The translations under genes were made by a program, and so were the position numbers. Below the pieces are notes generated by a model. The model saw only the letters and a list, made by a program, of their open reading frames with translations. It did no database searches and was not told where the DNA came from. Below are positions 83 to 23,522 of a DNA stretch of 25,816 nt, piece by piece. The DNA comes from Candidatus Poribacteria bacterium (GTDB taxonomy: Bacteria > Poribacteria > DTPJ01 > WJIO01). Each line of letters starts with the position of its first letter. The first letter of the stretch is position 1. The DNA lies in the NCBI GenBank assembly GCA_014730235.1, contig WJIO01000021.1, positions 1 through 25,816 on the forward strand, written 5' to 3'.

Positions 83-1162
83 ATGATTCAGCTTCATTTT
101 AAGGATGTATCGAAATTTTTTGGTGAAACCATAGCTGTTGATCATGTTACCCTGGACGTTGAAGAAGGTGAATTGTTTTTTTTGCTGGGACCGTCTGGCT
201 GTGGAAAGAGCACATTTTTAAGAACTATTGCCGGATTTTACCAGCCGGATACAGGCGAGTTATATTTTGACGACAGGTTGATGAACGACGTTCCACCCCA
301 TAAAAGAAATATCGGTATGGTTTTCCAGAATTACGCCCTGTGGCCTCACATGACAGTCTACCAAAATGTTGAATATGGTCTAAATGTGCGAAAGCTTCCT
401 GACGAAGAAAAAAAGAAGAGGGTTTATGAAGTGCTGGAAATCGTCAGGATGGAAAAATATGCAACCCGAAATCCAAACCAGCTATCAGGCGGTCAACAGC
501 AGAGAATAGCCCTGGCCAGAGCATTGGTTATCGAACCTGACGTATTGCTTCTGGATGAACCATTGAGCAACCTGGATGCTAAGCTGCGTCTGGAAATGCG
601 CAAAGAAATCAAGCGTATACATTCAGAGGCCGGTATTACATCAGTTTATGTTACCCACGACCAGAAAGAAGCCCTTTCGCTTGCTGACCGGGCGGCTGTT
701 ATGGAAAATGGCAAAATCATACAGGTAGGAAATCCCAGGCAAATATATAATCTGCCTATAAATAAATTTGTTGCAGGATTTATCGGCGAAACAAACTTTA
801 TTGATGGAAAAGTAAAATCTACATCCAGCAAAGATATTATAATGGATACGGAAATAGGTGAAATACATTCCATTTTCGCCGACCATGATTTTAATTCAGA
901 CGAAAATGTAACATGTTCCGTCAGACCCGAATCCATAATTATCTCAGAAAATGAAAAGGAAAATATACCCAATCAATTTGCCGCTACCATTTCTTCTGTC
1001 ATTTATCTGGGGGATGTGGAAGAATACTGGCTGGATGTGGCTGATACATGGGAAATAAAAGCTGTTCTGCATAATCCAGGGCAACAGGAACGTAAATCGG
1101 GAGATCAGGTTTATATAAATTTCCAGCCATTAGATGCTGTTTGCCTGCCTGTTGAAACATAA
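83..1162 (+). CDS. ABC transporter ATP-binding protein, Fe3+/spermidine/sugar (FbpC/PotA/UgpC-like) type
   Basis: This is the cytoplasmic ATPase of a binding-protein-dependent importer, 359 aa, which is full length for the family. Walker A GPSGCGKST is at residues 36-44, the Q-loop Gln at about 82, the signature LSGGQQQR at 134-141, Walker B with LLLDEP at 155-160, the D-loop SNLD at 162-165 and the switch His of THDQ at 192. Residues from about 238 to the end form the TOBE-like regulatory domain that marks the FbpC/PotA/MalK branch. The fused permease gene follows 153 bp downstream and is the obvious partner. The Shine-Dalgarno sequence ahead of the ATG is weak. The substrate cannot be read from the ATPase: ferric iron, 2-aminoethylphosphonate, polyamine or sugar are all possible. 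The binding-protein gene is not in the window and is probably just upstream. Confidence 0.93.
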   Translation: MIQLHFKDVSKFFGETIAVDHVTLDVEEGELFFLLGPSGCGKSTFLRTIAGFYQPDTGELYFDDRLMNDVPPHKRNIGMVFQNYALWPHMTVYQNVEYGLNVRKLPDEEKKKRVYEVLEIVRMEKYATRNPNQLSGGQQQRIALARALVIEPDVLLLDEPLSNLDAKLRLEMRKEIKRIHSEAGITSVYVTHDQKEALSLADRAAVMENGKIIQVGNPRQIYNLPINKFVAGFIGETNFIDGKVKSTSSKDIIMDTEIGEIHSIFADHDFNSDENVTCSVRPESIIISENEKENIPNQFAATISSVIYLGDVEEYWLDVADTWEIKAVLHNPGQQERKSGDQVYINFQPLDAVCLPVET

Positions 1163-1217
1163 AGACAATTTCTTCTTCAGAGTTAATTGTGGTAAAAATG
1201 GAAAGGTTTTATAAGCA

Positions 1218-1245
1218 TGTCATTCCTGTAAAAGCAGGAATGACA
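1218..1245. repeat. dispersed palindromic repeat, copy A
   Basis: The arms TGTCATTCCTG (1218-1228) and CAGGAATGACA (1235-1245) are perfect inverted copies around a 6-nt loop. The same arms recur at 25596-25623, with degenerate copies at 3047-3073 and 10375-10403. This copy lies between the ATPase and permease genes, so any transcript covering both would carry the hairpin. Confidence 0.85.
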
Positions 1246-1315
1246 AACAGAGGATATTTTTTCATTTTAACACTAAACTCGGAAGAACCAAACAATTTAA
1301 GTTGGATAAATCTAG

Positions 1316-3022
1316 ATGAATAAACGTTCATTTTTCAGCAAATACGATCTGACACTCTCTACATCAGTTTTCCTGCTTTTATTGATATGTTTCTTTGCAT
1401 TGTTCCTGTTTTACCCCCTTGTTTATGTGTTTTCTCAGGCCTTTATTGTTGATGGTAAAATATCCTTTGCCTTCTTCAAATTGATGTTTACCAATCCCCT
1501 GGAGCAGGAAAGCATAATAAACAGCATTATATTAGGATTTGTGGTAACCCTGACCACAACTTTATTAAGCCTTCCACTGTCATATTTCCTTGTGCGTTAT
1601 AACTTCAAAGGCAGGTCATTACTCCAGGGATTGATACTCGTGCCTATGGTAATGCCACCCTTTGTAGGTGCTATAGGTATGAAACAGCTTTTTGCCCGGT
1701 TTGGAAGCGTTAATCTCATACTGATGAAGCTGAATATAATCGAACCTACAGGGGCTATTGACTGGTTTGGTAGCGGATTCTGGGGTGTTGTATTTCTGGA
1801 AGTTCTCCATTTATACCCTATCATGTATCTGAATATAGCCGCAGCCTTGGCCAACATTGATCCAAGTCTGGAAGAAGCGGCTGAAAGTATGGGCGCTGGC
1901 AGGTTCAGGCTTTTCCGAACAGTGACAATGCCATTAATGCTGCCAGGATACTTCGCCGGAGCAATTATTGTATTTATCTGGGCATTTACCGATCTGGGAA
2001 CGCCTCTTATATTTGAATATCGCAAAGTAATCCCTATACGAATATATGATAAGGTAGGCGATATAAGGGTAAATCCCATGGGCTTTGCCCTGGTGGTTAT
2101 GGTAATACTGCTGACCCTGGTGTTTTTCTATCTATCCAAGAAATTCATGGGAACAAAGCGTTATGAGATGATGTCCAGGGGACACGCGGATATTCGGGAG
2201 AGAGATGTAGGCCCTGTGGGAACCGTATTTATATATATATTTATACTGGGTGTTATAGGTATAGCCGTTTTGCCCCATATCAGCGTTGCTCTTTTATCCG
2301 TTACTGAAAGATGGGCTATGACTATACTTCCCAGCGATTTTACCCTTGACCAGTATGGCAAGATATACTCCCACGATCTCACGTTGTCCAGCATCAAAAA
2401 CAGCATGATCTACAGCTTTTCCAGCACTATTGTAGACCTGATTTTGGGGGTGCTTATAGCCTACATCCTGGCCAGAAGACGTATTCCGGGTAAAAACATA
2501 CTGGATGCAACAGCCATGCTGCCTTTGGCCTTACCCGGTCTGGTATTGGCTTTTGGCTACATAGGCTGCTTCTCCGGGAGTTTTCTTGATCCCAGGGAAA
2601 ATCCCATTGCCCTAATAATTATTATTTACGCGGTTCGCAGGCTTCCGTATATGGTGCGTTCAGCTTATGCTGGATTTCAGCAGACCAGTATATCCCTTGA
2701 GGAAGCTTCTCAAAGCCTTGGTGCCTCTCCGGCCAAAACCATGCGAAAAATAACTTTCCCGTTGATAATAGCCAACCTAGTGGCTGGGGGTATTCTGTCA
2801 TTCTCCTTTGCTATGTTGGAAGTCAGCAGCAGCTTGATTCTGGCCATGAAAGAAAAATTCTTTCCCATCACCAAAGCTATATACTCCCTTTTCAACAGAA
2901 TAGAGGACGGAACTTACATCGCCAGTGCAATGGGTATGCTGGGGATGGTATTGCTCATAATCAGTCTGGTTCTGGCCGGGCGATTTTTGGGTAAAAGAAT
3001 GGGAGAGCTTTTCCGGGCTTAA
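1316..3022 (+). CDS. ABC transporter permease, fused two-domain FbpB-like
   Basis: This 568-aa inner-membrane permease contains two BPD-transport permease domains in one chain, as in FbpB/SfuB ferric transporters and some 2-aminoethylphosphonate permeases. Hydrophobic segments begin at about residues 17-40 and continue through both halves, about twelve in total. Each half carries the EAA loop that docks on the ATPase: EEAAESMGAGRF at about 186-197 and EEASQSLGASPA at about 462-473. The short linker between the halves is at about 275-300. It belongs with the ATPase gene upstream, but the 153-bp gap carries a palindromic repeat and the Shine-Dalgarno sequence is weak, so expression may be uneven between the two. 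The next gene downstream is convergent. The fusion and fold are clear; the substrate is not. Confidence 0.92.
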   Translation: MNKRSFFSKYDLTLSTSVFLLLLICFFALFLFYPLVYVFSQAFIVDGKISFAFFKLMFTNPLEQESIINSIILGFVVTLTTTLLSLPLSYFLVRYNFKGRSLLQGLILVPMVMPPFVGAIGMKQLFARFGSVNLILMKLNIIEPTGAIDWFGSGFWGVVFLEVLHLYPIMYLNIAAALANIDPSLEEAAESMGAGRFRLFRTVTMPLMLPGYFAGAIIVFIWAFTDLGTPLIFEYRKVIPIRIYDKVGDIRVNPMGFALVVMVILLTLVFFYLSKKFMGTKRYEMMSRGHADIRERDVGPVGTVFIYIFILGVIGIAVLPHISVALLSVTERWAMTILPSDFTLDQYGKIYSHDLTLSSIKNSMIYSFSSTIVDLILGVLIAYILARRRIPGKNILDATAMLPLALPGLVLAFGYIGCFSGSFLDPRENPIALIIIIYAVRRLPYMVRSAYAGFQQTSISLEEASQSLGASPAKTMRKITFPLIIANLVAGGILSFSFAMLEVSSSLILAMKEKFFPITKAIYSLFNRIEDGTYIASAMGMLGMVLLIISLVLAGRFLGKRMGELFRA

Positions 3023-3046: not shown

Positions 3047-3073
3047 GTCACTATTGCGAAAACAGGAATCCAG
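3047..3073. repeat. dispersed palindromic repeat, degenerate copy B
   Basis: This 27-base stretch matches GTCATTCCTGCGAAAGCAGG followed by AATCCAG at 23 of 27 positions. The left arm has decayed and the right arm (ACAGGAATCCAG) is kept. It fills the 57-bp gap between the convergent permease and FAD oxidoreductase genes. Confidence 0.6.
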
Positions 3074-3079
3074 ACTTTA

Positions 3080-5848
3080 TTATTCAGGCAAAACCTTATT
3101 TGCATATCGTCTGACATAAGCCCTTTCATCATCCAGATGCGGCTTTACAATATCCCGAATTTCATCCCCTTCTGAACCCAGCTTTGATAAAGTTTCAGCT
3201 ACAGTCAATTCAATTTGCCATAGAGCATCATCCGTCGTTCCCCATCCGCTGTTCATTACCCTTGTGGTTGGTAAATCCTTGCGCTGCAAAAATTCCTTTA
3301 AGTCAGGAATAACAGATTTATCGCCTATTCGTCCCAGGGCTATAACCGCGCCTGTGAGAGCATCAAGGTTAGCTTCTTTATCTTTCAGCACATCCACCAG
3401 AGCAGGAACAGCCTTTTCATCCCTGGCCATGCCCAGGAAGGGAATAGCAGCCTGCCAGAAGGGAACGTTTCGCCTTCCCTCTGTCTCTGTTGTTACCCGA
3501 TCTTCCACAGTCTTTAAAAGCTCAGGTATGCCTTCGTCCAGACCATGCCATGCTAAAGCGGCTGAAGCTCTGAACCTGACCTGGGGATCGTCGGAATTCA
3601 GCATATCTTTTAAGGCCAGGGCATCTTCTTTGCTTCCCTGACTTGACAACCACACCAATTCCTTTGTCTTTTGGGAATCCAGCTCTTCGGAAGAGGGTAG
3701 TTCCAGAACTTTTCTTTCAGGTATGGCTACATCCGGTCTGTGTTCTTCATCTAATAAGCCTTTTTGTCTTATAATCTCCTGAAGTTTATTTACATCAATC
3801 CGTCGTGGATTAACACCATTTTTAACAGCTAAAGCCGCAGCTATACCTGCCACCTCGCCGATGCGCTGCATGTCATTCTGCATTCTGAATTCCATATGGG
3901 CATCATAACTGATAGAAAGGGCACGACAGGCCAGGATTAATCCGTCTACACGCTGGGGTATAAGGCATCTGTATGGTACTTCACAACCGATACGCTGACT
4001 CCAGTTACCCAAAGCCCAAACCCATAGAGTGGCTTCGTCGCTTTCGTTTTCGTAATCATGGTGGTGGTTATCGTAGTGGGCTATTGTGAAGGAAATTGCA
4101 TCTTCAAAGCGTCTTCCCGCTATTTCATCTGCCAGTGTAAGGACATATTCACCCATGATCTGTCGACTCTGGCGTAAACCGATAATTGGTGCGAGATATA
4201 GTATGCGGTTGTCTTTTGTGAATTTATCACGCCAGTATTGACTTACTCCAAGCCTTCTGGCCCTGGTGAGGTCTGTTATATCCGACGGATCTACATAACC
4301 CGCGTCAAAGTTGTTATGACCTAAAGTTCCGTCTTTATCCAGCCTGCCGGATGATTGAGAATAGGCATGAGGCAGATTATCCTTTTCCCTTCCAATAACA
4401 AAAGGAGCGCCGGCCATTACCGCCAGATCGCCGTCGCCGGTGCTGTCGATGAATACTTTTGCATTGTAATCGGCTATTCCACCGGAATTTACGGCGATAA
4501 CGCTGGTGATCTGGTTGCGTTTTTCCCTTCCTTCTGAAACAGCTATGGATGTAGTTGTGGCTTTTTCTTCTCCCGATGTTCCATCTTTGCATAACGCGCC
4601 GGTGACTGTGGTATTAAGGAGTATGTCAACCCCTGCATCTATGGTCATATCCTGCAGGATAATCTTCTTTATCAGAGGATGGAATCCTCTAACCTTCCAT
4701 TTACCTGCAAAAAGGGGTGTCATGTCTTTGATCCTCTGATCCATTTCATCCTGTATACCCCCTCGAACGCCATGATAATAGGAATGGATGGCTCCACCTG
4801 TCCCTATACCTCCCAGACATGGAGAAGCTTCGATCAATGTGGTTTTTACACCTTCACGACCGGATGCTATTGCCGCAATGGAACCGGCTGTACCACCACC
4901 GACCACCAGGACATCGCAGGAAACTACCGGTTCCTCAATATATGAACCGGTCATCATGTCTTCGGGAAATTCTTTTACACCTTCACATTCTGATGCGATA
5001 GTGCCCGTTATTTCACCGGTTTTTAGTCTTAAGGAAGCTATATTTTCATCTCTGGATGCGTATAACGAAATTCTGAATAAATTCTTTAATGTGCTGTGCC
5101 TGGGACTATCTATATGGAATTTACCCACATTTTCAAAAGGCGCAGGTTCATTCCCTGCATGGCTGACCATTGCATCTCTAAGCCGGGGAACTTCCTTTCT
5201 TACATACTCGACTATCTCAGGCATTTTACTTACAGCCAGGAGTGTGTCACATTTTTCGATGGTGTATTCAACCCTCACCTCACCGTCCCATACAGAAGGC
5301 AGAACTCTGACACCGTTGCCTGCATCCAGAGGCAAATCCATATTTTCATTAACATTGTTGAAGTAAATAACGTGTTTGCCTCTGGATTCAGATTTTCGAG
5401 GTATGTCACCGGTCTGATTCCATAGGATCTGCTGATTTGTAGCATCCACGATGGTTTTTGATTTAATGATCTGTTCGCCGCTTTTGTTGCCTACAACAAC
5501 ACCGTAGGCCAGGTCATTCTCATATATCAATCGGATAGGATATGAATAGAGTAATACCGAAACTCCAGCATCTTTTGCCAGTTTATTAAGCACCATTTCA
5601 AGAATTGGCGCATCGGCTGTATCGTCTTTTATGCCGCCTGCGGATTTAAGTTCTGATTTAATTTTTTCCACAATGGATGATTCATGTTCCCCTAAATCCA
5701 GTTGACATGCCCACGTGCTTTCCCAACCCAAAGCAGGTCGTCTTTCCACCAGGAGCACGTTTTTATGGAGGGAAGCAGCTTCCAAGGCAGCGGCAAAACC
5801 ACCCATGCCGCCACCGTAAACAGCAATGTCGTAAATTTTATCTGTCAT
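3080..5848 (-). CDS. FAD-dependent oxidoreductase, tandem FAD modules plus C-terminal HEAT-like repeats
   Basis: The 922-aa protein has three parts. Residues 6-17 form a first dinucleotide-binding motif (GGGMGG, ending a beta strand) followed by the acidic end of strand 2 (LLVERR). Residues 311-322 begin a second, better conserved module (VLVVGGGTAG), with LIEASPCLGGIGTGG at 338-352 and the FAD-contact motif DSTGDGDLA at 468-476, as in the FAD_oxidored family (PF12831). From about 733 to the end come alpha-helical HEAT/PBS-lyase-like repeats, for example VPALVDVLKD and VIALGRIGDK. There is no signal peptide, so it is probably cytoplasmic. A clear AGGAGA precedes the ATG by 6 nt. It is the last gene of the five-gene minus-strand operon, 15 bp after the UroD paralog. 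The first FAD module looks degenerate and may be structural. The substrate is unknown. Confidence 0.85.
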   Translation of the reverse strand: MTDKIYDIAVYGGGMGGFAAALEAASLHKNVLLVERRPALGWESTWACQLDLGEHESSIVEKIKSELKSAGGIKDDTADAPILEMVLNKLAKDAGVSVLLYSYPIRLIYENDLAYGVVVGNKSGEQIIKSKTIVDATNQQILWNQTGDIPRKSESRGKHVIYFNNVNENMDLPLDAGNGVRVLPSVWDGEVRVEYTIEKCDTLLAVSKMPEIVEYVRKEVPRLRDAMVSHAGNEPAPFENVGKFHIDSPRHSTLKNLFRISLYASRDENIASLRLKTGEITGTIASECEGVKEFPEDMMTGSYIEEPVVSCDVLVVGGGTAGSIAAIASGREGVKTTLIEASPCLGGIGTGGAIHSYYHGVRGGIQDEMDQRIKDMTPLFAGKWKVRGFHPLIKKIILQDMTIDAGVDILLNTTVTGALCKDGTSGEEKATTTSIAVSEGREKRNQITSVIAVNSGGIADYNAKVFIDSTGDGDLAVMAGAPFVIGREKDNLPHAYSQSSGRLDKDGTLGHNNFDAGYVDPSDITDLTRARRLGVSQYWRDKFTKDNRILYLAPIIGLRQSRQIMGEYVLTLADEIAGRRFEDAISFTIAHYDNHHHDYENESDEATLWVWALGNWSQRIGCEVPYRCLIPQRVDGLILACRALSISYDAHMEFRMQNDMQRIGEVAGIAAALAVKNGVNPRRIDVNKLQEIIRQKGLLDEEHRPDVAIPERKVLELPSSEELDSQKTKELVWLSSQGSKEDALALKDMLNSDDPQVRFRASAALAWHGLDEGIPELLKTVEDRVTTETEGRRNVPFWQAAIPFLGMARDEKAVPALVDVLKDKEANLDALTGAVIALGRIGDKSVIPDLKEFLQRKDLPTTRVMNSGWGTTDDALWQIELTVAETLSKLGSEGDEIRDIVKPHLDDERAYVRRYANKVLPE

Positions 5849-5863
5849 AACAATCTCCTGTGT

Positions 5864-6874
5864 TTATCCAACAACATCTATTATAGTCATAAGAGCGTTT
5901 TTATATGTTTCTTCCATCTCAATGCTGTCAATATTTCGTAAATTTGTTAATCCGAGTATCAAAGAATTTCCTGATTTGTCCTGCCGTATTAATTCTTTTA
6001 TATATTCCCTTAGTGAAAATGAATCATCGAATAAAATACAATCGGGTAAGTTTAACCAGATAACAGAATCTATCTCCAAAGCTTCTTTGATGGACAGATC
6101 ACCTTCCGGTGGTGGAGTAAAGCCCTGTAACACATCCACACCGATTTTGGATATCATTTCTTTTATACCAGATATTCTGGATGTGTTAATATCCAGAGCG
6201 CATATTTTATCTTCTTCCCGGAGTTGGGGGATATATTCATGATAAAAAGGAAGAACGTATTTCTTTAATAATTCAGGTGAATAATAGTTACTTATAAAAC
6301 CAACAGACACAAATATGGCCGGTGAGTTAATAATGACTTCCAGAAGTCTTTCTGTTCTGTGTTCCAAGGCTTCTATTAACCTTTTTAATTCTTGTGGATG
6401 CCGTTCTAACTCCTTTTCCAGATTGCCTACACCTATAAACCCAGCCGCTTCCTCCAGGGGGTTTAAGATACCTGATGCTCTGACTAGGCCATCAGACCCC
6501 AAATCCCTGACGGTATTCAGGTATACGCTGTAATCTGGATGAAAAATTGTATCCTCAATCATAAAAATAACGGGTTCATAATCTTTAACATTTTCTATCA
6601 TCCGTCGGATTTTGTTATTTTTTCTGCCAGACGATATTTTACCTACAGGGGTATTATATACTGTAAGTCGGGTATCTTTCTGTGTTTCGTATTCTGTTTT
6701 TACATCCGGCATTTCATGCCAGCATACAGGGCTTTCGGAATATAACCCCATACCTTTATTCCGCATTTCCCGCTCAAAACGACCACGAGGTATCAGGCCT
6801 GCTTTTGGCGCAAAGGGAACTTTATCAGGCTTTTTGCCATATAGAACCGAGTTTATTCTTTCCAGAAATGTCAT
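5864..6874 (-). CDS. UroD-superfamily protein, paralog 1, probably catalytically altered
   Basis: This 336-aa TIM-barrel protein belongs to the uroporphyrinogen decarboxylase/corrinoid methyltransferase superfamily (PF01208). Its N-terminus (MTFLERINSVLYGKKPDKVP) is nearly the same as that of the next gene, as are IPRG-FEREMRN-GMGL (29-44) and FTPPP-GDLSI (252-262), so the two are tandem duplicates. The residues expected to bind substrate or metal differ. The upstream paralog has CAMHAH, whereas here it is CALDIN, giving Asp228 and Asn230 in place of two His. Its conserved Glu in VIEAF is Gln250 here (VLQGF). It could be a non-catalytic partner of a heterodimer or an enzyme with changed chemistry. 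AGGAGA lies 8 nt before the ATG. It is not the heme-pathway HemE, which has a different N-terminal motif. Confidence 0.82.
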   Translation of the reverse strand: MTFLERINSVLYGKKPDKVPFAPKAGLIPRGRFEREMRNKGMGLYSESPVCWHEMPDVKTEYETQKDTRLTVYNTPVGKISSGRKNNKIRRMIENVKDYEPVIFMIEDTIFHPDYSVYLNTVRDLGSDGLVRASGILNPLEEAAGFIGVGNLEKELERHPQELKRLIEALEHRTERLLEVIINSPAIFVSVGFISNYYSPELLKKYVLPFYHEYIPQLREEDKICALDINTSRISGIKEMISKIGVDVLQGFTPPPEGDLSIKEALEIDSVIWLNLPDCILFDDSFSLREYIKELIRQDKSGNSLILGLTNLRNIDSIEMEETYKNALMTIIDVVG

Positions 6875-6886
6875 AATGTGAATCTC

Positions 6887-7951
6887 CTAAAAAGCACATT
6901 CGTCAATGGCATCCATTATGGCCTTAATGCCTTCTTTAAAGGCATTTTCGGTATATTCGTCAGCAACGCCATAAAGACCCAATTCGGTCATACCAATGAC
7001 CAGAAGGCCTGGGGGATCGCTTTTAATTAAATCGATGGTGTATTCTTTTGTGGCTTCAGGGCCTGAAAGGAATACCGTTTCCGGGAAGTTGACCCATATA
7101 ACAGTATCATTCCCCCATGCCTTTCTGGCTTCAGCTATGGACAGATCGCCTATAGGCGGAGGCGTAAAAGCTTCGATAACGTCAATATCTGCGGCAGCCA
7201 GCAGGTTTCTGAATCCCCACAGATTGGAGGCGTGGGCGTGCATTGCGCATATTTTGCCTTTTTCCCTTAGTATTGGAATATATTTTCGGTAGAAAGGCAG
7301 TATGTATTTTTCATATTGTTTAGGGCTGTATGATCCGCTTAAACCACCAAAAGCTATAAAATCCGCCGGTGAATCAGCAACATAAGGAAACATTCTTTCA
7401 GCGCGCCTTTCCAGCGCGTCCAGAAGTCTACTAAAATGGTCGGGGTGATCATACTGTTCTGTTCCCCATTTAAAAAGGCCAAAATAACCCTCTGTGGAAT
7501 CATAAGGCGCGGTAAGTCCTGACCCTCTTACTATACCATCTGTTTCCCATTGTCTTAAAGGTTTATTATATCCTTCGTCATTGGAATAGAACTGAGCGTT
7601 ATCAATCATAAATATAACCGTTTCATAATCTTTAATGTCCTTTATCATCCATTCCAACTGCACACTTCCGCTGTCGCTGAGACGACCCAGATGGGTGCGT
7701 CTTTTAGTAGACACATCACCAACAGGGGTATGATATATAGTCTCGATTATGTCACCACTTCTAAAAGACTCAGACCATACATCAGGTGTTCTTGATCCCA
7801 CGCTGGATCGTCTTGCACATAATCCCATACCACGATTACGCATTTCCCGCTCAAAGTCACCTCTGGGAATCAGGTTATCATAGGGTGCAAAGGGAACTTT
7901 ATCGGGCTTCTGGCGATTTAAAACTGTTTTGACTCTTTCCAGAAAAGTCAT
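6887..7951 (-). CDS. UroD-superfamily protein, paralog 2, active-site residues kept
   Basis: This 354-aa protein of the UroD superfamily (PF01208) has residues consistent with an active enzyme: His238 and His240 in CAMHAHASNLWG, Glu260 in DVIEAFTPPPIGDLS, and a C-terminal IGMTE segment. Relatives include zinc-dependent corrinoid methyltransferases such as MtaA/MtbA and many uncharacterised proteins of environmental bacteria. A third Cys ligand as in MtaA is not evident, so a classical zinc methyltransferase is not assured. AAGGGGA precedes the ATG. The gene is 15 bp after the sulfatase-fold gene and 12 bp before its shorter paralog, so they are surely co-transcribed. The likely role is transfer or removal of a one-carbon or carboxyl group in a catabolic pathway. 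That role is an inference from superfamily and neighbours. Confidence 0.85.
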   Translation of the reverse strand: MTFLERVKTVLNRQKPDKVPFAPYDNLIPRGDFEREMRNRGMGLCARRSSVGSRTPDVWSESFRSGDIIETIYHTPVGDVSTKRRTHLGRLSDSGSVQLEWMIKDIKDYETVIFMIDNAQFYSNDEGYNKPLRQWETDGIVRGSGLTAPYDSTEGYFGLFKWGTEQYDHPDHFSRLLDALERRAERMFPYVADSPADFIAFGGLSGSYSPKQYEKYILPFYRKYIPILREKGKICAMHAHASNLWGFRNLLAAADIDVIEAFTPPPIGDLSIAEARKAWGNDTVIWVNFPETVFLSGPEATKEYTIDLIKSDPPGLLVIGMTELGLYGVADEYTENAFKEGIKAIMDAIDECAF

Positions 7952-7966
7952 GTTATTCCCCTTTTA

Positions 7967-9415
7967 TTATTTATCATCGCTGTAGTCAATGGCCCAGCTT
8001 CCATCGGCGTTTAAAGTAGGATTTTTCCCCCAGCATTTTAGAGTATCTTGCGGTGCTTCGTATTTATTCAGATGATCTATAAGGAGTCCATGCATCTGCT
8101 TAACAATATCCTGGTTATCTTTGGAAATATTATTGGCAGCCAGAGGATCAACTGATATATCATACAGTTCAGGATTACCTTCTGCACCAACAGGAGTATA
8201 ACCCCATTTTTCCGTAACCAGGAAAGGTGTGGTGACTTTGGATGGTACTGCTCCACCCTCTTTTGATCTGGCAAAACACCCACTAACCACATAATCCCTG
8301 TGTTTGCCTTTGCCATTTCTCAGGGCTTCCGCAAGAGATTCACCATGAAAAGGAATAGGTTGATCAACCTGAACACCAGCCAAATCGCAGACTGTAGGTA
8401 AGAAATCCATAGGCTGACCGAAAACATCCAGGATGTTTCCTTTTGGCACATCAGGGGCAGCTACAAGAAATGGTACATGGCCGATCTCAGGATATATGGG
8501 CCAGTAGCGGTTATCATCGTCGCTTATATTGCTTTTCCCTGTCCTGCTATGTTCACCTAGAGACATACCATGATCGCTGGTAATCACTACAACGGTATTC
8601 TCCCACATCTGCAAATCATCTATTTTTTGCAACACCCTACCGATCCATCGGTCTACCAGTTCAGCTTCGGCGGCGTAATGGGCCCGAAGATTTCTCAGTT
8701 CATCATCAGTATAGGCTTTTGTATTGCCATAATTGGGGTGAATCATGGGTATGCCGTCATAATCAGGAGTATATCTTTTGACCATGTATTCCGGGGGATC
8801 CCAGGGTTCATGGGGATCAAAGAAATCTACCCACAGAAAAAATGGTCCGGCTTTATGATTTTCTTCCAGCCATCTTACAGCCAGGTTTCCGGTCTTGGCT
8901 GGGAAGGTTTCAGTTTCATAGCGCCAATACCTGTTATGCCATCGGTGCTGATCCGACAGGGGATAACCTTTGTATAAAGGACGCATCCTGGTTTTTTCAT
9001 GTGGCATAACCACTTCAATTGGATCATTCAGATGCAGAAGGGCTTTATCACCTTCCTGACCTCTGGTCTGATAAGCTGCGGTAAAACCAAACTGAAATCG
9101 AGCATTAAAAAGATGAGGACAGTCACATATTAACTGGGAAGCATAACCTTTATTACTCAACATACGGCCTATATGATTCTGACCACTCTGGTCAATAGGC
9201 TGCCAACCGTAATTAGGCCAACCCAGTAGCCCTGTGGCAATATCTGTGCGATGAGGTATTGTTGGAAAACTTCCGGTGTAAAAACCTTCCACCGACGTTG
9301 CCTGTTTATCTATAAAAGTATCCATTTCAGGAGTGCGAACAGGCATTTCTTTGGCTTTATCCCCAAGGTTATCATAACGAAAAGTGTCAGTAATCAATAA
9401 TATGATGTTATGCAT
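7967..9415 (-). CDS. sulfatase-fold hydrolase with Thr at the formylglycine position
   Basis: This 482-aa alkaline-phosphatase-superfamily protein (sulfatase family, PF00884) has metal-site motifs ITDTFRYDNLG at 8-18 and TSDHG at 279-283. The C-terminal LYDISVDPLAANNI matches the usual sulfatase ending. The catalytic C/S-x-P-x-R motif reads T-I-P-H-R at 52-56 (codon ACA, complement of 9260-9262). Thr cannot be converted to formylglycine by the known maturases. The GK-x-H motif of ordinary sulfatases is also missing; CDCPHLF stands in that area. Thr is the nucleophile in other branches of the superfamily, such as nucleotide pyrophosphatases and LtaS, so a phospho- or phosphono-ester hydrolase is as likely as a sulfatase. 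There is no signal peptide. AGGAGA lies ahead of the ATG. It is the second gene of the operon. Confidence 0.85.
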   Translation of the reverse strand: MHNIILLITDTFRYDNLGDKAKEMPVRTPEMDTFIDKQATSVEGFYTGSFPTIPHRTDIATGLLGWPNYGWQPIDQSGQNHIGRMLSNKGYASQLICDCPHLFNARFQFGFTAAYQTRGQEGDKALLHLNDPIEVVMPHEKTRMRPLYKGYPLSDQHRWHNRYWRYETETFPAKTGNLAVRWLEENHKAGPFFLWVDFFDPHEPWDPPEYMVKRYTPDYDGIPMIHPNYGNTKAYTDDELRNLRAHYAAEAELVDRWIGRVLQKIDDLQMWENTVVVITSDHGMSLGEHSRTGKSNISDDDNRYWPIYPEIGHVPFLVAAPDVPKGNILDVFGQPMDFLPTVCDLAGVQVDQPIPFHGESLAEALRNGKGKHRDYVVSGCFARSKEGGAVPSKVTTPFLVTEKWGYTPVGAEGNPELYDISVDPLAANNISKDNQDIVKQMHGLLIDHLNKYEAPQDTLKCWGKNPTLNADGSWAIDYSDDK

Positions 9416-9427
9416 ATTTTATTTCTC

Positions 9428-10165
9428 CTATTTCAAATCTAGACTAACTTTATACATCTTCGATACTTCATCATCGGACAGATGGTTATATGGTTTCCAT
9501 AATTCTTTGATCACCGGACCGTGATAGCCCCTTCTCTGAGATACAGCACCATCACAGCGCATATCAGATGGTTCTATTTTAAATCCCAGTTTGCGAAAAC
9601 GCTCAACGCTTAAGTGGTTTGACCATGACATTAAGGGTGGTATATGCTGGATGGCCATGCCGCTAATTTCATCCCAGTCATTTTCCCGTGCCCAGTCAAT
9701 CAACTTTTTTAGCATATTTATGCCTATACCAAGCTTATAGTAACTGCTCCTTTCTCCCTTACTTACAGAACCATATACTTCCGCTATCTGAAAGCAATAC
9801 AGACGCAGAGATTTTTTGGATAGGGATTCCTTTTCAGGTATTTTAAAATTCGTATTTGCTATATACTTCAGATGATCCAGAGTCTGCACACATAAATTTC
9901 CATCCATTATATCTAAAGGCTCTGTAGGATAAAACCTCAGCTTTCCCACCACAAAATCATCTTCCACAGCTAATATTGCACATGAATCATAAGCTTTGCA
10001 TACTGCTCTAAGAAAAGAAGCCACTGTATCAGCCAGCACACCAGCTTCTTTTTCACCGGGTAACAACTCATCATAAACTGAAGACAACTCCTGCTTGCTA
10101 ATCTTACCACCATGTAAAAAATAGCATAGAAGATTATTCTCACCCATTAAAGTGTATTCGATCAT
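9428..10165 (-). CDS. GNAT-like N-acetyltransferase domain protein
   Basis: This 245-aa protein is weakly recognisable as GNAT-like. VVGKLRFYP looks like the central beta strand, YYKLGIGINMLKKLIDWARE like the acetyl-CoA-binding motif A (glycines followed by a helix), and SVERFRKLGFKIEP like the C-terminal strand typical of GNAT enzymes. The frame is open further upstream, to an ATG at 10249. I chose the ATG at 10163-10165 because AAAGGAACAGG lies directly ahead of it and a good promoter (-35 at 10207-10212, -10 at 10184-10189) lies between the two starts. It is the first gene of the five-gene operon, 12 bp before the sulfatase-fold gene. The substrate is unknown. The alternative is an uncharacterised family with only GNAT-like topology. 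Confidence 0.65.
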   Translation of the reverse strand: MIEYTLMGENNLLCYFLHGGKISKQELSSVYDELLPGEKEAGVLADTVASFLRAVCKAYDSCAILAVEDDFVVGKLRFYPTEPLDIMDGNLCVQTLDHLKYIANTNFKIPEKESLSKKSLRLYCFQIAEVYGSVSKGERSSYYKLGIGINMLKKLIDWARENDWDEISGMAIQHIPPLMSWSNHLSVERFRKLGFKIEPSDMRCDGAVSQRRGYHGPVIKELWKPYNHLSDDEVSKMYKVSLDLK

Positions 10166-10374: not shown

Positions 10375-10403
10375 CTGGATTCCTACCTCCGCAGGAATGA
10401 CAG
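10375..10403. repeat. dispersed palindromic repeat, copy C (reverse orientation)
   Basis: CTGGATTCCT (10375-10384) and GCAGGAATGACAG (10391-10403) match the complement of the repeat seen at 3047-3073 and 25596-25623. The middle (ACCTCC) has diverged. It lies in the divergent region between the five-gene operon and the lipoprotein gene. Confidence 0.65.
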
Positions 10404-11287: not shown

Positions 11288-11300
11288 TATTATATAAAAT

Positions 11301-11344
11301 AATAAAAAAGGGCGTGAAGTTTAAACTTCACGCCCTTTTTTATT
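11301..11344. terminator. bidirectional intrinsic terminator
   Basis: A perfect 44-nt palindrome consists of AATAAAAAA, GGGCGTGAAGTTT, AAACTTCACGCCC and TTTTTTATT. The GC-rich stem (11310-11335) is followed by six T on each strand, so it can stop transcription in either direction. It ends the lipoprotein gene. Confidence 0.93.
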
Positions 11345-11372
11345 ATGGCTTTATTTCTCGTTTAAATTTCTC

Positions 11373-11456: not shown

Positions 11457-12986
11457 ATGACACAAAAACCTAATGTATTATTTATTATATCAGACCAACA
11501 TAACGCAAAAGTTCTTGGTCATAAAGATCATCCTGATGTAAAAACCCCTAATCTGGATAAGATGGCCCAGGAAGGTGTGCGGTTCGACAATGCTATTACT
11601 CAGAATCCCATATGCACACCAAGTCGGGTTTCGTGGTTTTCAGGACAGTATTGCCATAATCACGGTTATTATGGTTTGAGTGGTCCTAAACCAAAAGGTC
11701 TGCCTACTCTTTTAGGTCATTTGCAGGAAAATGGTTATAAGATCGGTGCTGTGGGTAAGATACATTGTCCTGAAAACTGGATTGAAGATGATTCGGACAT
11801 ATTCCACGACACATGTGGAACAAGCGTTCAGGGAAGAAGTAAAGAATATGCTGAGTATTTGGCAGATCGAAATTTAACTGAATTAGAAGATCACGGCGCA
11901 ATGCGGGAATTCGGCAAACGAGGTAATCAGACTGTTGAAGGTAGACCCTCAAAAGTATCTTACGAAGATGGCCAGGAGGGTTGGGCTGTCCGTAAAGGTA
12001 TGGAATTTATGACCCAATGTGTAGATGATAACGATCCCTTCTTCTTACATGTTAGCCTACCTAAACCCCATCAATGCTACACCCCTGCACAAGAATTCTG
12101 GGATTTGTATGATGAATCAGATTTAACTCTACCACCCAATGCCGATTACGATATGATCGGCAAAGCACCAAACCTCATTCGCACAGCAAATCACTTTCGC
12201 AACGGTAACTGGCAGTTGTTTGAGCCAAAAACATACAAAGCAGGAAGACTTCGCAAACTTCATGGATACCTGGGTAACGTAAGTCATGTGGATCATGCTG
12301 TGGGTGAATTGATTGACTGGCTTAAGGAAAATGATCTTGATGAGGATACTATCGTTATATATTCATCAGATCATGGAGACTACGCCTGTGAACATGGTGT
12401 ATTGGAAAAAGCACCGGGGATATGTTCTGATGCCATAACCCGAGTGCCTATGATCTGGCGATGGCCGGGTGAATTTAAGACGGGTTATAAAGCCGATGAG
12501 ATAGTTGAATCTGTGGATTTCTGTAATACCATCTGTAATCTGGTAGGTATTGACAACATGGAAACATCAGACGGCAAAGATATCTCTCATCTTCTACGAG
12601 GTGAGAAAGGTCAGGTGCATGAAATTGGTGTAACGGAATTTGCATGGAGTAAAAGCATTCGTAAAGGTAAATATCGTCTGATATATTATCCAGAGGAAAT
12701 GTTTGCATCTGATTATCCCGATGGTTTTGGGGAACTTTATGATCTGGATGCAGACCCCTGGGAAATGAAAAATCTTTTCTTTGAACCGGATTATCAGGAC
12801 GTGGTGCAGGAACTACAACAAGATTTACTGCACTGGCTTGTTACTACTACAAGACCTGCAACCGTGCATCCCCTGAATATACCCCAGACGGATCAGACAT
12901 TTATGGCCTATGGAAAAACCGTCAACGCCGATGGTAAAATTAACCCTGAGAATATTAAATCCATAGCTGGCAGGAATTATGTTTAG
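11457..12986 (+). CDS. sulfatase, canonical Cys (formylglycine) type
   Basis: This 509-aa type I sulfatase (PF00884) has the maturation and catalytic motif C-T-P-S-R at residues 53-57, where Cys53 would become formylglycine. Metal ligands are in IISDQH (10-15) and SSDHGD (303-308), and the GKIH motif at 100-103 supplies the catalytic Lys and His. The C-terminal GELYDLDADPWEMKNL matches the family ending. No signal peptide is visible, which suggests cytoplasmic desulfation of imported small substrates, unless the start is misplaced. It would release sulfate from a sulfated sugar or similar ester. A Gfo/Idh/MocA dehydrogenase follows 125 bp later, which fits desulfation followed by sugar oxidation. 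It contrasts with the Thr-type paralog at 7967-9415. No maturase gene is in the window. Confidence 0.93.
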   Translation: MTQKPNVLFIISDQHNAKVLGHKDHPDVKTPNLDKMAQEGVRFDNAITQNPICTPSRVSWFSGQYCHNHGYYGLSGPKPKGLPTLLGHLQENGYKIGAVGKIHCPENWIEDDSDIFHDTCGTSVQGRSKEYAEYLADRNLTELEDHGAMREFGKRGNQTVEGRPSKVSYEDGQEGWAVRKGMEFMTQCVDDNDPFFLHVSLPKPHQCYTPAQEFWDLYDESDLTLPPNADYDMIGKAPNLIRTANHFRNGNWQLFEPKTYKAGRLRKLHGYLGNVSHVDHAVGELIDWLKENDLDEDTIVIYSSDHGDYACEHGVLEKAPGICSDAITRVPMIWRWPGEFKTGYKADEIVESVDFCNTICNLVGIDNMETSDGKDISHLLRGEKGQVHEIGVTEFAWSKSIRKGKYRLIYYPEEMFASDYPDGFGELYDLDADPWEMKNLFFEPDYQDVVQELQQDLLHWLVTTTRPATVHPLNIPQTDQTFMAYGKTVNADGKINPENIKSIAGRNYV

Positions 12987-14163: not shown

Positions 14164-14260
14164 TAAAAACTTAATTGATCTTTACCAAAAATTATGATAT
14201 TTTATCTATAAATAATTGCCATTTTTATTTATCAATCAATTTTCAAGGAGGTATAGTTCA

Positions 14261-15004
14261 ATGAAAAGTATATTTATAAGTTTTCTTGTTATTTTCGTGA
14301 TAGTCACCCCATGTTTTGGTGCGTTGGATTTAACCGATCCAGAACTACTGCTTTACCTACCTTTCAATGACGATACGGAAGATTATTCAATCCATGGCAA
14401 TCATGGTACATTGGCAGGTAATGCTGAATTTGTGGAAGGAAAATTCGGTCAGGCTATGGAATTTGAGGAATCCGGCGAAGTTAAATGTCCGTATATTCCC
14501 CTTAATAACAAGAGCTTTACCATCTGTATGTGGGTAAGACCTGAGTTATCAGGTGCTGCTGAACAGTGTGTATTCAGCCAGATGCAGGCGAATGCCACAA
14601 ATACAAGTATGCACTACAGGATTTATACAAATGGAACAGTAAGGATGGGATTCTATAGTAACGATCTGGACGCTCCAGGAGTTGCCCAGGCCGGTGAATG
14701 GATGCATATTGCTTTCTGGCTTGATGTAGAAGGTAAATCGAGAAAGGTTTTCATCAACGGTGAGGAAGCTGTTACAGATGCTGGCAAGTCCGGAATAGAG
14801 TATCTAGGCACATCCGGCGATACTATTATTGGTTCATGGGGAACCAGTGGTCAGAGATTCAGAGGCGTTATAGATGAAGTCCAGATATGGGACAGACCTT
14901 TGACGGAAGATGAAATTCTCCAGAGCATGGAAGATATTACCGCTCTTGCTGTTGAACCTGTTGATAAATTAACATCAAGTTGGGGTGAATTAAAAGAGAA
15001 ATAG
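14261..15004 (+). CDS. secreted LamG-like (concanavalin A-like) domain protein
   Basis: This is a 247-aa exported protein. The start at 14261 is set by AAGGAGG (14245-14251), although the frame is open from 14216. The signal peptide is MKSIFISFLVIFVIVTPCFG, with likely cleavage before ALDLT. The mature part is one LamG-like jelly-roll (Laminin_G_3, PF13385): LLLYLPFNDDTEDYSIHGNH opens the domain, FTICMWVRPE and MHIAFWLDVEG follow, and FRGVIDEVQIWDRPLTEDEI is the hallmark ending at about residues 202-221. The domain usually binds glycans or acts as an adhesive module. About 25 residues follow it without an anchor motif. The gene stands alone between two terminators. A weak promoter may start at TTGATC (14175-14180). 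Confidence 0.9.
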   Translation: MKSIFISFLVIFVIVTPCFGALDLTDPELLLYLPFNDDTEDYSIHGNHGTLAGNAEFVEGKFGQAMEFEESGEVKCPYIPLNNKSFTICMWVRPELSGAAEQCVFSQMQANATNTSMHYRIYTNGTVRMGFYSNDLDAPGVAQAGEWMHIAFWLDVEGKSRKVFINGEEAVTDAGKSGIEYLGTSGDTIIGSWGTSGQRFRGVIDEVQIWDRPLTEDEILQSMEDITALAVEPVDKLTSSWGELKEK

Positions 15005-15289: not shown

Positions 15290-16234
15290 TCACCATCGTT
15301 CTTCCCTGCGAACTCCCGCTTCCTCGATTCTGGATGATCTGGGTGAATCTACGCTTTCTACATTGTAATATTGATCACCATTCATGGATTCCCCTGTATC
15401 TATAACATCCATACCTCTTTCCTTGTTTCCCTGGATAAAATTGCGGTTAAGTTTTCCTCCACCATATACAGCCCAGTCGCTGTTATACATTATATTGTTC
15501 TGGTTAATCTCAGGAGAAGAGCCGGAGTAGCATGATATGCCATTTCCCAGATTATTGCTTATAAGGTTATGGGATATTTTGGCAAAAGATGAGCGTTTAC
15601 ATTCTATACCATCTCTGAGATTTGCTGTAATAACGTTATAATTTATATTGGGAGAAGCTGAATCATCACAAAGTATTCCAATTCCATTTTTGGTAATTTT
15701 GTTGTCTTCAATTGTGGGTGAACAAGCCTTAAAAACTAAACCCACCTGGCTTGCCTGGCCTATAATACAACGATTGAGGCGGAGAGAATCACTCTGGCAT
15801 ACTATCAGTGTATGGAAATCTATCACACAATATTCTATACGCGTATCAAGGCTTAGATCGCTTATGAGTATGCCACCCCAGTCTCCCGGTTCAGGCTCTG
15901 ATTCTGCGGAAGTCATAATTACAGCACGGTTTGGTTGTCCCTCTACATACAGATTACCGTCAACTAATAGTTTTTTGTCTTTTTCAAATTTTATTGTAGT
16001 TCCATCGGTTATAATAAGGGTAATATCCTCAGGAACAAGAATATCGTCTTTGACAATTATATTCCCAGTCCAGGTTTCATCCTTTGTCAATTCACCGGAT
16101 TTTTCCACCGGCGCAGTGTTACCTGTCATGGCTCCCGGTTCACCTATTTCTATGGGTTGACAACCCATTTGCATAGAAACCAGAACGAATAAAGCTAAAG
16201 CGATTAATATTATAACGGGATAATATTTTACCAT
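15290..16234 (-). CDS. exported right-handed beta-helix repeat protein
   Basis: This 314-aa surface or periplasmic protein begins with MVKYYPVIILIALALFVLVS, ending in MQMGC. The signal peptide is clear, but the lipobox is poor (Q and M before GC), so lipidation at Cys25 is uncertain. From about residue 75, repeated turns of about 22-24 residues such as PTIEDNKITKNGIGILCD, PNINYNVITANLRDGIEC and PEINQNNIMYNSDWAVYG show the right-handed parallel beta-helix seen in NosD-like and pectate-lyase-like proteins. AAAGGAAG precedes the ATG. It follows the glycosidase by 21 bp. The last 18 residues (from SPRSS) are charged, Arg/Glu-rich and do not continue the helix. A carbohydrate-binding or carbohydrate-cleaving role is plausible but unproven. 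Confidence 0.82.
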   Translation of the reverse strand: MVKYYPVIILIALALFVLVSMQMGCQPIEIGEPGAMTGNTAPVEKSGELTKDETWTGNIIVKDDILVPEDITLIITDGTTIKFEKDKKLLVDGNLYVEGQPNRAVIMTSAESEPEPGDWGGILISDLSLDTRIEYCVIDFHTLIVCQSDSLRLNRCIIGQASQVGLVFKACSPTIEDNKITKNGIGILCDDSASPNINYNVITANLRDGIECKRSSFAKISHNLISNNLGNGISCYSGSSPEINQNNIMYNSDWAVYGGGKLNRNFIQGNKERGMDVIDTGESMNGDQYYNVESVDSPRSSRIEEAGVRREERW

Positions 16235-16255: not shown

Positions 16256-18355
16256 TTATACAACACGAACTCCCTCAGGAACTTCAGTTTTAACCACGAT
16301 CTGTCCGTCTTTTTTCCTTATCCAGGATACGCCAATAGGCCCCCTTGGCGTTGATACTGTACCCTCACACCTGTTAATACCGTCAGGAGTCCATATAGCT
16401 ATTTCTACTTCACTGTAACCGGGAGTAACGGGATTTACACCCAACAATACCCGGGAGAACCATTCAACAGGTGTGCTGCTCCAGGCGTGGCAAAGACTTA
16501 TACGATATTCGTCGTATGCCGTATACGTTGTAAGGTCTTTGTGAAAATCGCTTGAATATTTGCATCGGGCAGCTTCCCAAAAGGTAGTAGCTCCTCTTGC
16601 CAGCATGCCGCCCCACAGGGATCTTATTATGGAGAAACCCCGATGAGGTATATCAAGATCAACGTCAAGACATGCCAGAAGATAAGCCGAACAGGGGGTT
16701 ATTGGGTCAGCAAGCCTATAACTGTCTGCAAATTCAAAAGCCTTTTTATTATCAACATAACCAGCCAAGATGCCCAAGACCTTTGTTACTACAGGGTCAA
16801 CCTTAAGAAATGATTCCCCCGATATCTCAGGTCTGGACCAGTTGAAGTTAATATCCAGATCGGGTATAAATTCTTTTATATTAAACAGGGCCTGTCTGGC
16901 AATAGTATAAATGGCCTGGAGGGATAGATGGCGTTCATCTTCTTTAATAGGAACCCAGTCAATGAAGCTATTAGGTGCATTTAGAAAACCATTTTCATCA
17001 ATGTTCTCAGTGACCCATTTTATATGACGCTGCATCAAAGGCTTAAGTTCATAGACAAATTCAAAATCTCCTCGCTGCATAAGGTATTCCCATATAGTTA
17101 CAAACCACCACAACGTATAACTGGCAGTGCCATTCATCCATAAGCCATAGGGAGTTTCACCAAGTTCCACCAGGGAGCGGCGCAGTATGGAAAAATCGTT
17201 CCATATAGGATAAGCACCTCTGGCAGCCAGATAGAGATCATAAACCCAGGGAAGTCTGTCTCGTTTAATACCATCCCATAGGGCCAACTGATGGCACAGG
17301 TAGTTAGTATGGACAGCGGTTTCATATATCTTGTTGATTTGTTCATCATCACATTGAAAATTACCTGTTTTCGACAGCTTTGCCCCCACCGATTCAAAAA
17401 CCAGGTCAAGATCAAACTCGGTTTCAACAGCTCCCATGACAAACAATCCTACATATTTCATACCTGTTGGAACTGAGTATACCGTTTCACCGGGATTTAC
17501 TTCCAGTATCTCTGTAATGCAGTTATCATATTGAGTCATTTCCAGAAGGGATTCGGCGCCGTTCCAGAGAATTGTTATCTTCTTTGCGCTAAGATTGTGT
17601 ATACATAGTCGGGCATTATATTCCCTTTGCAGGTCAAACAGAACGCTTGGGGTTTGCTCCTTCTGATTTTCCCACTGGATTTTGCGAAGCCTTTTCCAGT
17701 CGTCCTGCTTTCTCAGGTGATAAATAGGTATAAAGCTTTCATGCTCCAGGGATTCAGGTATATACCCGCTTTTTATTTTGCCTGATAATTTTATCAAACT
17801 ACCTTTTCTCTGGCATTCTATTTCCCTTGTTCTCATAACCGCACCCTGGATAATATAGGCCTTTAGATCGCCAAAACCGGAACGGACAAAGTCATCGGGT
17901 GGATAATCCGGGTTACCAAAAGGCTCTTGACCCAACAAGCAGATTTCTTCGGCTAGATCGTCATCAGCCGACCATGTATCATCCGTAACCAGTCGGAAAT
18001 CCTTCCCTTCCAGCCATGCCGCACATCCTACAGTTCTGTCATGGGCAAAGGAAATAGCGGGATGTTCTGGCACAGGTTCTTTACAATTAATCTGGATTTC
18101 CAGTAAATGCTCTCCTGCACCCAAAGGCATTACATTCATATAATTAAACTTACATATATTAGCAGGACTTTCGGGAATATCCATTATGGTAATACCATCA
18201 ATCATTACTTTTGTGCTGCCGGTGAGAGCTATTCCAAATTTAGGTGATTTAAGATTCCTGTGTAATTCAAACCTTCTATACAATATTGTTTTAAGGCGAT
18301 TTTTTCTTTGAGGGTGCCATATCCATCGGGGCAAAGATAAACTTTTGGAATTCAT
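16256..18355 (-). CDS. GH78-like alpha-L-rhamnosidase / six-hairpin glycosidase
   Basis: This 699-aa glycoside hydrolase has N-terminal beta-rich regions (1 to about 330), with WIWHP and YRRFEL as in rhamnosidase N-domains. An (alpha/alpha)6 catalytic domain follows at about 335-635, then a short C-terminal beta domain. Features of GH78 relatives are WDGIKRDRLPW (360-370), where Asp would be the acid, GATTFWE (588-594) with Glu594, SLCHAWSSTPVEWF (620-633) and GTVSTPRGPIGVSW (665-678). Without a signal peptide it would act inside the cell on imported oligosaccharides or glycosides. AGGAG lies 9 nt ahead of the ATG. It is first in an operon with the beta-helix and DUF3343 genes. The exact sugar specificity is unverified. 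Confidence 0.85.
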   Translation of the reverse strand: MNSKSLSLPRWIWHPQRKNRLKTILYRRFELHRNLKSPKFGIALTGSTKVMIDGITIMDIPESPANICKFNYMNVMPLGAGEHLLEIQINCKEPVPEHPAISFAHDRTVGCAAWLEGKDFRLVTDDTWSADDDLAEEICLLGQEPFGNPDYPPDDFVRSGFGDLKAYIIQGAVMRTREIECQRKGSLIKLSGKIKSGYIPESLEHESFIPIYHLRKQDDWKRLRKIQWENQKEQTPSVLFDLQREYNARLCIHNLSAKKITILWNGAESLLEMTQYDNCITEILEVNPGETVYSVPTGMKYVGLFVMGAVETEFDLDLVFESVGAKLSKTGNFQCDDEQINKIYETAVHTNYLCHQLALWDGIKRDRLPWVYDLYLAARGAYPIWNDFSILRRSLVELGETPYGLWMNGTASYTLWWFVTIWEYLMQRGDFEFVYELKPLMQRHIKWVTENIDENGFLNAPNSFIDWVPIKEDERHLSLQAIYTIARQALFNIKEFIPDLDINFNWSRPEISGESFLKVDPVVTKVLGILAGYVDNKKAFEFADSYRLADPITPCSAYLLACLDVDLDIPHRGFSIIRSLWGGMLARGATTFWEAARCKYSSDFHKDLTTYTAYDEYRISLCHAWSSTPVEWFSRVLLGVNPVTPGYSEVEIAIWTPDGINRCEGTVSTPRGPIGVSWIRKKDGQIVVKTEVPEGVRVV

Positions 18356-21106: not shown

Positions 21107-22132
21107 ATGCTGAAAGCAGCATTCTTAGGATGCGGAGGCCGTTCCAGAGGCCATGCCCATGCTTATCAACACGTTACAAAAGGTGAGTTAGTGGCTGTAT
21201 GCGATCTGGACGAAACACGACTTAAAGAAAGAGGGGAAGAATACGGTATTCCCAAAGAGAAACGCTATACTGATATTCATGAGATGCTGGACAAGGAAAA
21301 GCCCGATGTCCTACACATAGTCACAGCCCCTATCTGGCGAGTTGAGCTTATGACCATTGCCGCAGATCATAAGGTTCCTGTGGCTATTGTAGAAAAACCT
21401 GTGGCTCTGCAAGGAGAAGATTGGAAGCAGATCAGGGATTTGAATGACAAATGTAAGACAAAGTTTGTCATAAATACCCAGCTTCATTTCCATCCCAACA
21501 ACCTTATGTTGAAAAAAGACGTGGCCGACGGAAAAATCGGTGAAGTGCGTTTCATGGAAGCCAGTGCTCGTTCCACCATGGTAGATCAGGGTGTGCATGT
21601 CCTGGAACTGGCCCACTCATACAATGGTTTTGCAAAACCCATAAAGGTTTTTGGTAACGTATCCGGTGGAAAATCCATCAGTGGTCGTCAGCCGTCACCC
21701 AACACAGCCGAAGCTGCTGTTGAATTTGAAAACGGCGTAAGGTGTATGCTTTTAATCGGTTCTGTTGCGCCTGAAACAAACGACAGCGGAAGCATATATT
21801 CCCACAAGCGTATATCAGTATATGGAACAAAGGGATTTGTCCAGTGGACAATGCACTGGTGGGAGCGCAGCACTCCTGAAGGTGGTTACGAAAAGGGAAC
21901 TCATAGCTACGGACAGCAGGATGTCCTGGCTCAAGCTGCTCTTACCGAAGCTGCATTTGACTGGGCTGTGGATGATTCCAAACCCCATCCCACAAGACTG
22001 GAACATGCCCTGGTAAAATCCAACATCATAATGGGAGCTTATACCAGCACCCTCATCCATGAACCTGTCGAACTACCTTTTGATCCACCTGACGGCCTTC
22101 TGGATGCCCTGAAAGAGAGAATAGCTGAGTAA
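21107..22132 (+). CDS. Gfo/Idh/MocA-family oxidoreductase 2
   Basis: This 341-aa NAD(P)-dependent dehydrogenase has the Rossmann motif FLGCGGRSRGHA (6-17), an acidic strand-2 end (CDLDE), the Glu-Lys-Pro motif in IVEKPVAL (94-101), and D-x3-H in MVDQGVHVLEL (Asp160, His164). AAAGGAG lies ahead of the ATG, and the gap to the GT-C gene is only 35 bp, so they are co-transcribed. Compared with oxidoreductase 1 it has the same fold and motifs, but little identity is visible outside the motifs, so the substrate probably differs. A long palindrome follows its stop. Confidence 0.92.
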   Translation: MLKAAFLGCGGRSRGHAHAYQHVTKGELVAVCDLDETRLKERGEEYGIPKEKRYTDIHEMLDKEKPDVLHIVTAPIWRVELMTIAADHKVPVAIVEKPVALQGEDWKQIRDLNDKCKTKFVINTQLHFHPNNLMLKKDVADGKIGEVRFMEASARSTMVDQGVHVLELAHSYNGFAKPIKVFGNVSGGKSISGRQPSPNTAEAAVEFENGVRCMLLIGSVAPETNDSGSIYSHKRISVYGTKGFVQWTMHWWERSTPEGGYEKGTHSYGQQDVLAQAALTEAAFDWAVDDSKPHPTRLEHALVKSNIIMGAYTSTLIHEPVELPFDPPDGLLDALKERIAE

Positions 22133-22138
22133 ATTGAG

Positions 22139-22174
22139 CAATGACCCGGGTTTGTGCACAAACCCGGGTCATTG
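22139..22174. repeat. 36-nt perfect palindrome in the operon gap
   Basis: CAATGACCCGGGTTTGTG (22139-22156) and its exact complement (22157-22174) abut with no spacer. There is no U-run after it, so it is a poor intrinsic terminator. It may be a processing or stabilising stem that changes expression between oxidoreductase 2 and the FG-GAP gene, or a protein-binding site. Confidence 0.85.
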
Positions 22175-22192
22175 TCATATATGGAGAATAAG

Positions 22193-23509: not shown

Positions 23510-23522
23510 ACAAATCTATCTC

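Follow-up and report, generated by a model that had tools for sequence, protein, structure and literature searches.

Threonine nucleophiles occur in phosphodiesterases of the alkaline phosphatase superfamily, and formylglycine sulfatases carry a C/S-x-P-x-R motif, the Cys or Ser of which becomes formylglycine. According to SulfAtlas, an oxidised threonine would instead yield a ketone, and Thr-type proteins are not to be counted as sulfatases unless experiment shows it (PMC5066984). Besides UroD/HemE, the uroporphyrinogen decarboxylase (URO-D) superfamily includes the known methyltransferases MtaA, CmuA, MtoB and CdmB. The last of these, a chloromethane methyltransferase, works without zinc (PMC13222342). 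Here we describe an operon of five genes in which relatives of both groups stand together, located on contig WJIO01000021.1 of a Candidatus Poribacteria bacterium. The whole contig of 25,816 nucleotides was analyzed and is referred to as the window; it derives from a draft assembly (GCA_014730235.1; genome G000 and contig C180 in our labels) of 451 contigs that is 91.6% complete. The reading we favor, to which we give roughly even chances, is that of a lineage-specific operon, built from known families around an old hydrolase that is found throughout the phylum, with its genes sharing some catabolic role.

The five open reading frames are intact and all lie on the minus strand between positions 10165 and 3080, in the following gene order:

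9428..10165, minus strand: GNAT-like protein, 245 aa (273 aa if an upstream ATG at 10249 is used)
7967..9415, minus strand: Thr-type sulfatase-fold hydrolase (alkaline phosphatase superfamily), 482 aa, PF00884
6887..7951, minus strand: URO-D-like protein B, 354 aa, PF01208 below cut-off plus AlphaFold fold match
5864..6874, minus strand: URO-D-like protein A, 336 aa, PF01208 below cut-off, old tandem duplicate of B
3080..5848, minus strand: double FAD_oxidored and HEAT-repeat protein (FAD/HEAT protein), 922 aa, PF12831 and HEAT_2

Consecutive genes are separated by 12, 15, 12 and 15 bp, and a purine-rich ribosome-binding site precedes every start (aaagga at the GNAT-like start at 10165, followed by ggag, gggg, ggag and ggag). 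The packed operon described in the original prediction, which was made from the letters of the window, was therefore recovered, and a single transcript is likely because of these short gaps and the ribosome-binding site at each start. The same prediction had placed the genes behind one promoter. This part found no backing, since a consensus scan returned 22 promoter-like sites versus 23 expected from shuffles, none of them above chance. An obvious signal peptide was not seen in any of the five proteins, the hydrolase included, and they therefore probably act in the cytosol.

Conservation was analyzed in 97 relatives and in 386 genomes across 293 genera, with 83 phylum relatives compared for the hydrolase. 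The full set was found as neighbors in none of these 97-386 genomes. Proteins A and B had no orthologue in these samples, the GNAT-like protein was found in its own genome only, and orthologues of the hydrolase and of the FAD/HEAT protein lay in unrelated neighborhoods. A search for co-occurrence had been suggested as a check on the original prediction, according to which the operon may encode an undescribed pathway, with hydrolysis of an ester, one-carbon or carboxyl transfer by the URO-D proteins and flavin oxidation as its steps and a convergent FbpBC-type importer as the possible supplier of its substrate. In the genomes sampled, the outcome goes against that model as one of a conserved pathway. 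The tight packing would suit it, as would two partial pairings: in one phylum relative (G079) a URO-D gene follows about 20 bp behind the hydrolase orthologue, and in a genome outside the phylum (G266) a URO-D gene and a GH38 mannosidase gene come after the FAD/HEAT orthologue. However, these URO-D partners belong to other subfamilies (19% identical to B in G079, without a BLAST match in G266), and, because URO-D genes are so abundant in such genomes, we discounted both pairings as meaning little; chance may explain them. The importer genes do exist (83-3022), but they form a separate convergent unit for which no link to the operon was found. Overall, a conserved pathway of this kind appears improbable.

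The hydrolase matches the Sulfatase family (PF00884, E-value 2.5e-33) and has the metal ligands of the sulfatase fold: when aligned with the Cys-type sulfatase encoded elsewhere in the window, it keeps the metal-ligand residues D10, D281 and H282 as well as the active-site residues H202 and K294. Its nucleophile motif reads T-I-P-H-R at the place of the Cys/Ser motif of formylglycine sulfatases. The threonine is present in all 28 fetched orthologous stretches (the window's own copy counted) and in six more distant relatives, the motif of which is TIPTR or TVPNR. The hydrolase thus lacks the convertible nucleophile motif of the formylglycine sulfatases (S1). Since threonine is not known to give formylglycine, phosphoryl transfer through a Thr nucleophile would, by analogy, be likelier than sulfatase action. 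Profile matches in the PDB comprised sulfatases and also the phosphonate monoester hydrolases 2w8s and 2vqr.

Orthologues of the hydrolase, at 59-74% identity, were found in 60 of the 83 phylum relatives; two further genomes that have one lie outside the phylum. The neighborhoods of these orthologues vary and are unlike that of the operon. A cluster composed of a beta-helix protein, a UbiA prenyltransferase and the hydrolase is common in many genomes of one family (L154:6896-10462, L155, L156, L157, L152, L066 and L067), and it is a better context than the operon in which to study this enzyme. In some genomes the cluster adjoins ffh, rpsP and trmD-type genes. Other arrangements include a peptidase C26 and a glutamine synthetase behind the orthologue (G001), and the company of an APH-type kinase, a calcineurin-like phosphoesterase and a DMFA2_C-domain protein (G194). 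A homologue of the clustered beta-helix protein (34-38% identity) persists in the window at 15290-16234, which makes it probable that the hydrolase was there first and that the other genes joined it later. A paralogue of the hydrolase was also observed on another contig of the same genome (C326; L083:6676-8789); it is 36% identical, carries TIPTR and overlaps or abuts a clear GNAT gene (PF00583, E-value 3e-07). A recurring pair of GNAT and Thr-type hydrolase genes was considered and rejected, as the two GNAT-like proteins match over 16 residues only.

The FAD/HEAT protein is a strong match to FAD_oxidored (PF12831, E-value 1.2e-85, 288.8 bits versus a cut-off of 27) and to HEAT_2 (E-value 2.6e-13). 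It is composed of two FAD_oxidored units, with nucleotide-binding motifs at residues 7-47 and 312-347, and a HEAT tail. In two genomes its halves are encoded by separate adjacent genes (G016, contig C224, and G074; L059:5202-8200 and L062:4066-7106), which supports a joint function of the halves; in G016 they were confirmed by Pfam, and in L059 the second half-gene carries the HEAT tail. Orthologues are 57-64% identical in four phylum relatives (G001, G016, G057 and G079) and 42% identical in G266. With the exception of G266, they are flanked by LamG or unrelated genes, and neither the hydrolase nor the GNAT-like gene lies beside any of them. No characterised homologue of the double FAD/HEAT protein was found.

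The two URO-D-like proteins stay below the curated PF01208 cut-off of 23.9 bits, with 20.6 bits for B and 18.5 bits for A. A confident AlphaFold model of B (predicted local distance difference test, pLDDT, 87.8) superposes on human UROD with a Z of 21.6 over 292 residues (root-mean-square deviation 3.4) and on the MtaA-type methyltransferase 4ay7 of M. mazei with a Z of 20.5. Protein B is thus modeled with the full-length UROD fold, which is extended to A because the two proteins share 42% of their residues. Their genes agree at only 39% of four-fold degenerate sites; conservation is much higher (73%) over an initial stretch of 45 residues. Judging from these sequences, A and B are an old tandem duplication, and the fact that both frames are intact across such divergence argues that both are in use. 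The best relatives of B outside its own genome are 32-34% identical and are encoded by single genes, never paired. A PDB sequence search with B alone gave spurious crystallin matches only, and a genome-contig scan with the A/B alignment gave one locus at 20% identity, which is uninformative.

The superposition on 4ay7 bears on a further explanation, a corrinoid-dependent demethylase, in which A and/or B would serve as methyltransferase I, with a methylated sugar or ester as substrate, and the product would be oxidised by the FAD protein. The superfamily holds the known methyltransferases named above, and at least one corrinoid protein adjoins another URO-D gene in the same genome (contig C202). 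However, the metal motif is lost, as VLHICGN of 4ay7 aligns with CAMHAHASN in B and with CALDINTSR in A. Neither protein has the H-x-C zinc motif of methyltransferases of the MtaA/CmuA type; because CdmB is zinc-free, this loss is by itself compatible with methyl transfer. Among the scanned proteins of the window, operon included, none was a corrinoid protein, a methyltransferase II or an activating enzyme. The window showed no cobalamin riboswitch, and its Rfam and tRNA scans were empty. The genome encodes only four B12-binding_2 domains, all on contigs other than that of the window, versus 76 URO-D genes, so that most URO-D proteins are unlikely to have a corrinoid partner of their own. We therefore give a corrinoid demethylase little credence.

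The fifth family label proved weaker. The original prediction had named a GNAT-like protein, a Thr-type sulfatase-fold hydrolase, two URO-D-like proteins and a FAD/HEAT oxidoreductase; the last four labels held, while that of GNAT rests on a weak match to PHROG 1249 'acetyltransferase' (E-value 0.0039) over 54 residues (144-197). No Pfam or NCBIfam family matched this protein, its single-sequence AlphaFold model was unusable (pLDDT 43.9) and was discarded, and a tblastn search of plasmids with it gave no match.

The 76 URO-D (PF01208) genes of this genome, about one per 73 kb, form a background that is more surprising than the operon itself. A clearly expanded URO-D set (at least 14 of at most 19 scored) was detected in 10 of 84 phylum genomes, and most genomes have two. 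We found no paper on uroporphyrinogen decarboxylase in Poribacteria, nor one combining URO-D, sulfatases, Gfo and Planctomycetes. Such a density makes chance co-location easy, and it favors the view that accretion has put the five genes on one transcript without a common pathway: the hydrolase would be of a housekeeping type present across the phylum, the URO-D pair unrelated, the FAD protein stand-alone and the acetyltransferase-like gene an orphan. Every part of the operon indeed has its own distribution and its own neighbors. On the other hand, the packing, with four successive gaps of 12-15 bp and a ribosome-binding site at each start, suggests that the genes were selected for joint expression. 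In addition, the FAD/HEAT gene, whole or split, is present in six phylum genomes (the source genome, G001, G016, G057, G074 and G079), every one of which is among the ten with expanded URO-D sets, a coincidence that is suggestive at the genome level but confounded by phylogeny, which may explain it. Accretion without a pathway is possible, yet we hold it to be less probable than an operon with a joint role.

Should the five genes form such a lineage-specific catabolic operon, their joint function, the order of steps and the substrate class, as read from the sequence, would be the following. A small molecule, probably carbohydrate-derived or phosphorylated, would be catabolised or modified. The role of the hydrolase would be to cleave a phosphoryl group off a mono- or diester by way of a Thr intermediate. 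Oxidation of the product would fall to the FAD protein, and a carbon-bond step, decarboxylation-like or one-carbon, to the URO-D pair, with the GNAT-like protein possibly acylating an intermediate or a partner. The rhamnosidase-like, Cys-type sulfatase, Gfo/Idh and SDR (short-chain dehydrogenase/reductase) genes of the window are in line with this proposal. Three points weigh against it. The immediate operon neighbors of the 76 URO-D genes are very mixed (70 neighbors, 164 Pfam families, with Gfo/Idh/MocA the commonest at 4), which makes the carbohydrate link weak; contigs of only 4-6 kb carry several of the FAD/HEAT orthologues, the neighborhoods of which are thus only partly visible; and the nearest sampled relative shares only the order with the source, so that the result on conservation applies to relatives at the level of the order and beyond. 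A more specific version, which we consider a long shot, has A and B as an obligate zinc-less URO-D heterodimer that, together with the double-FAD fusion, acts on a metabolite, phosphorylated or derived from a glycan, in a carbon-bond reaction that would be new; the 76-member family would run many such reactions.

The gene order of the operon links a URO-D pair with a hydrolase and a flavoprotein, a link that, provided the genes act together, would offer a handle on the role of the large and mostly uncharacterised URO-D expansions of uncultured bacteria. As it stands, the operon is a genome-specific, uncharacterised set of known families, and it mainly illustrates that a conserved pathway is not to be deduced from tight packing in a single genome.

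The surroundings of the operon include the following genes:

83..1162, plus strand: ATP-binding cassette (ABC) transporter ATPase (PF00005, TOBE_2), outside the operon; best NCBIfam subfamily potA, close to PhnT2 too
1316..3022, plus strand: two-domain ABC permease of the FbpB/PhnU2 type, two PF00528 stretches; PhnU2 E-value 2.4e-45, below cut-off
11457-12986, opposite strand to the operon: Cys-type sulfatase with canonical C-T-P-S-R, 2 kb upstream of the Thr-type hydrolase

The ABC unit (83-3022) ends 57 bp from the operon. Its best matches fall in the PotA/PhnT2/PhnU2/FbpB range, and none passes a specific cut-off from which a substrate could be named. Because the contig starts 82 bases before the ATPase gene, a binding-protein gene upstream of it would lie out of view. 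Further genes at 14216-15004, 16256-18355 and 21107-24335 encode a LamG-domain protein, a rhamnosidase-like protein, two Gfo/Idh/MocA oxidoreductases, an FG-GAP protein and an SDR, and the context of the window is a carbohydrate-degradation neighborhood. A short palindromic-looking repeat, ATTCCTGCnnnnGCAGGAATGACA, is found between genes at 1217-1260, 10379-10403 (upstream of the operon) and 25595-25638, and a related tail (caggaatccag) lies near 3065, between the convergent gene ends. Behind the gene ending at 11287, a near-perfect inverted repeat of 20 bp with A/T runs on both sides (11299-11346) is likely a terminator; both strands score.

Compared with GNAT acetyltransferases, the first protein of the operon shows the weak, short PHROG match, with no GNAT match in Pfam or NCBIfam and no relative in the 386 genomes. 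The URO-D-like pair resembles UroD/HemE, the MtaA/CmuA methyltransferases and CdmB in the predicted full-length fold of B (Z 20-22), but A and B differ from all of these in an identity of only 12-14%, in Pfam scores below the cut-off, in the lack of the HxC zinc motif and in having no corrinoid partner nearby. The hydrolase shares the fold, PF00884 and the metal and active-site residues with formylglycine sulfatases (SulfAtlas S1, with the phosphonate monoester hydrolases/phosphodiesterases of S1_0), from which it is set apart by the threonine that it and every orthologue carry in place of the Cys or Ser. Finally, the last protein of the operon is a clear relative of the FAD_oxidored (PF12831) proteins, and it fuses two FAD domains and a HEAT tail in one chain.

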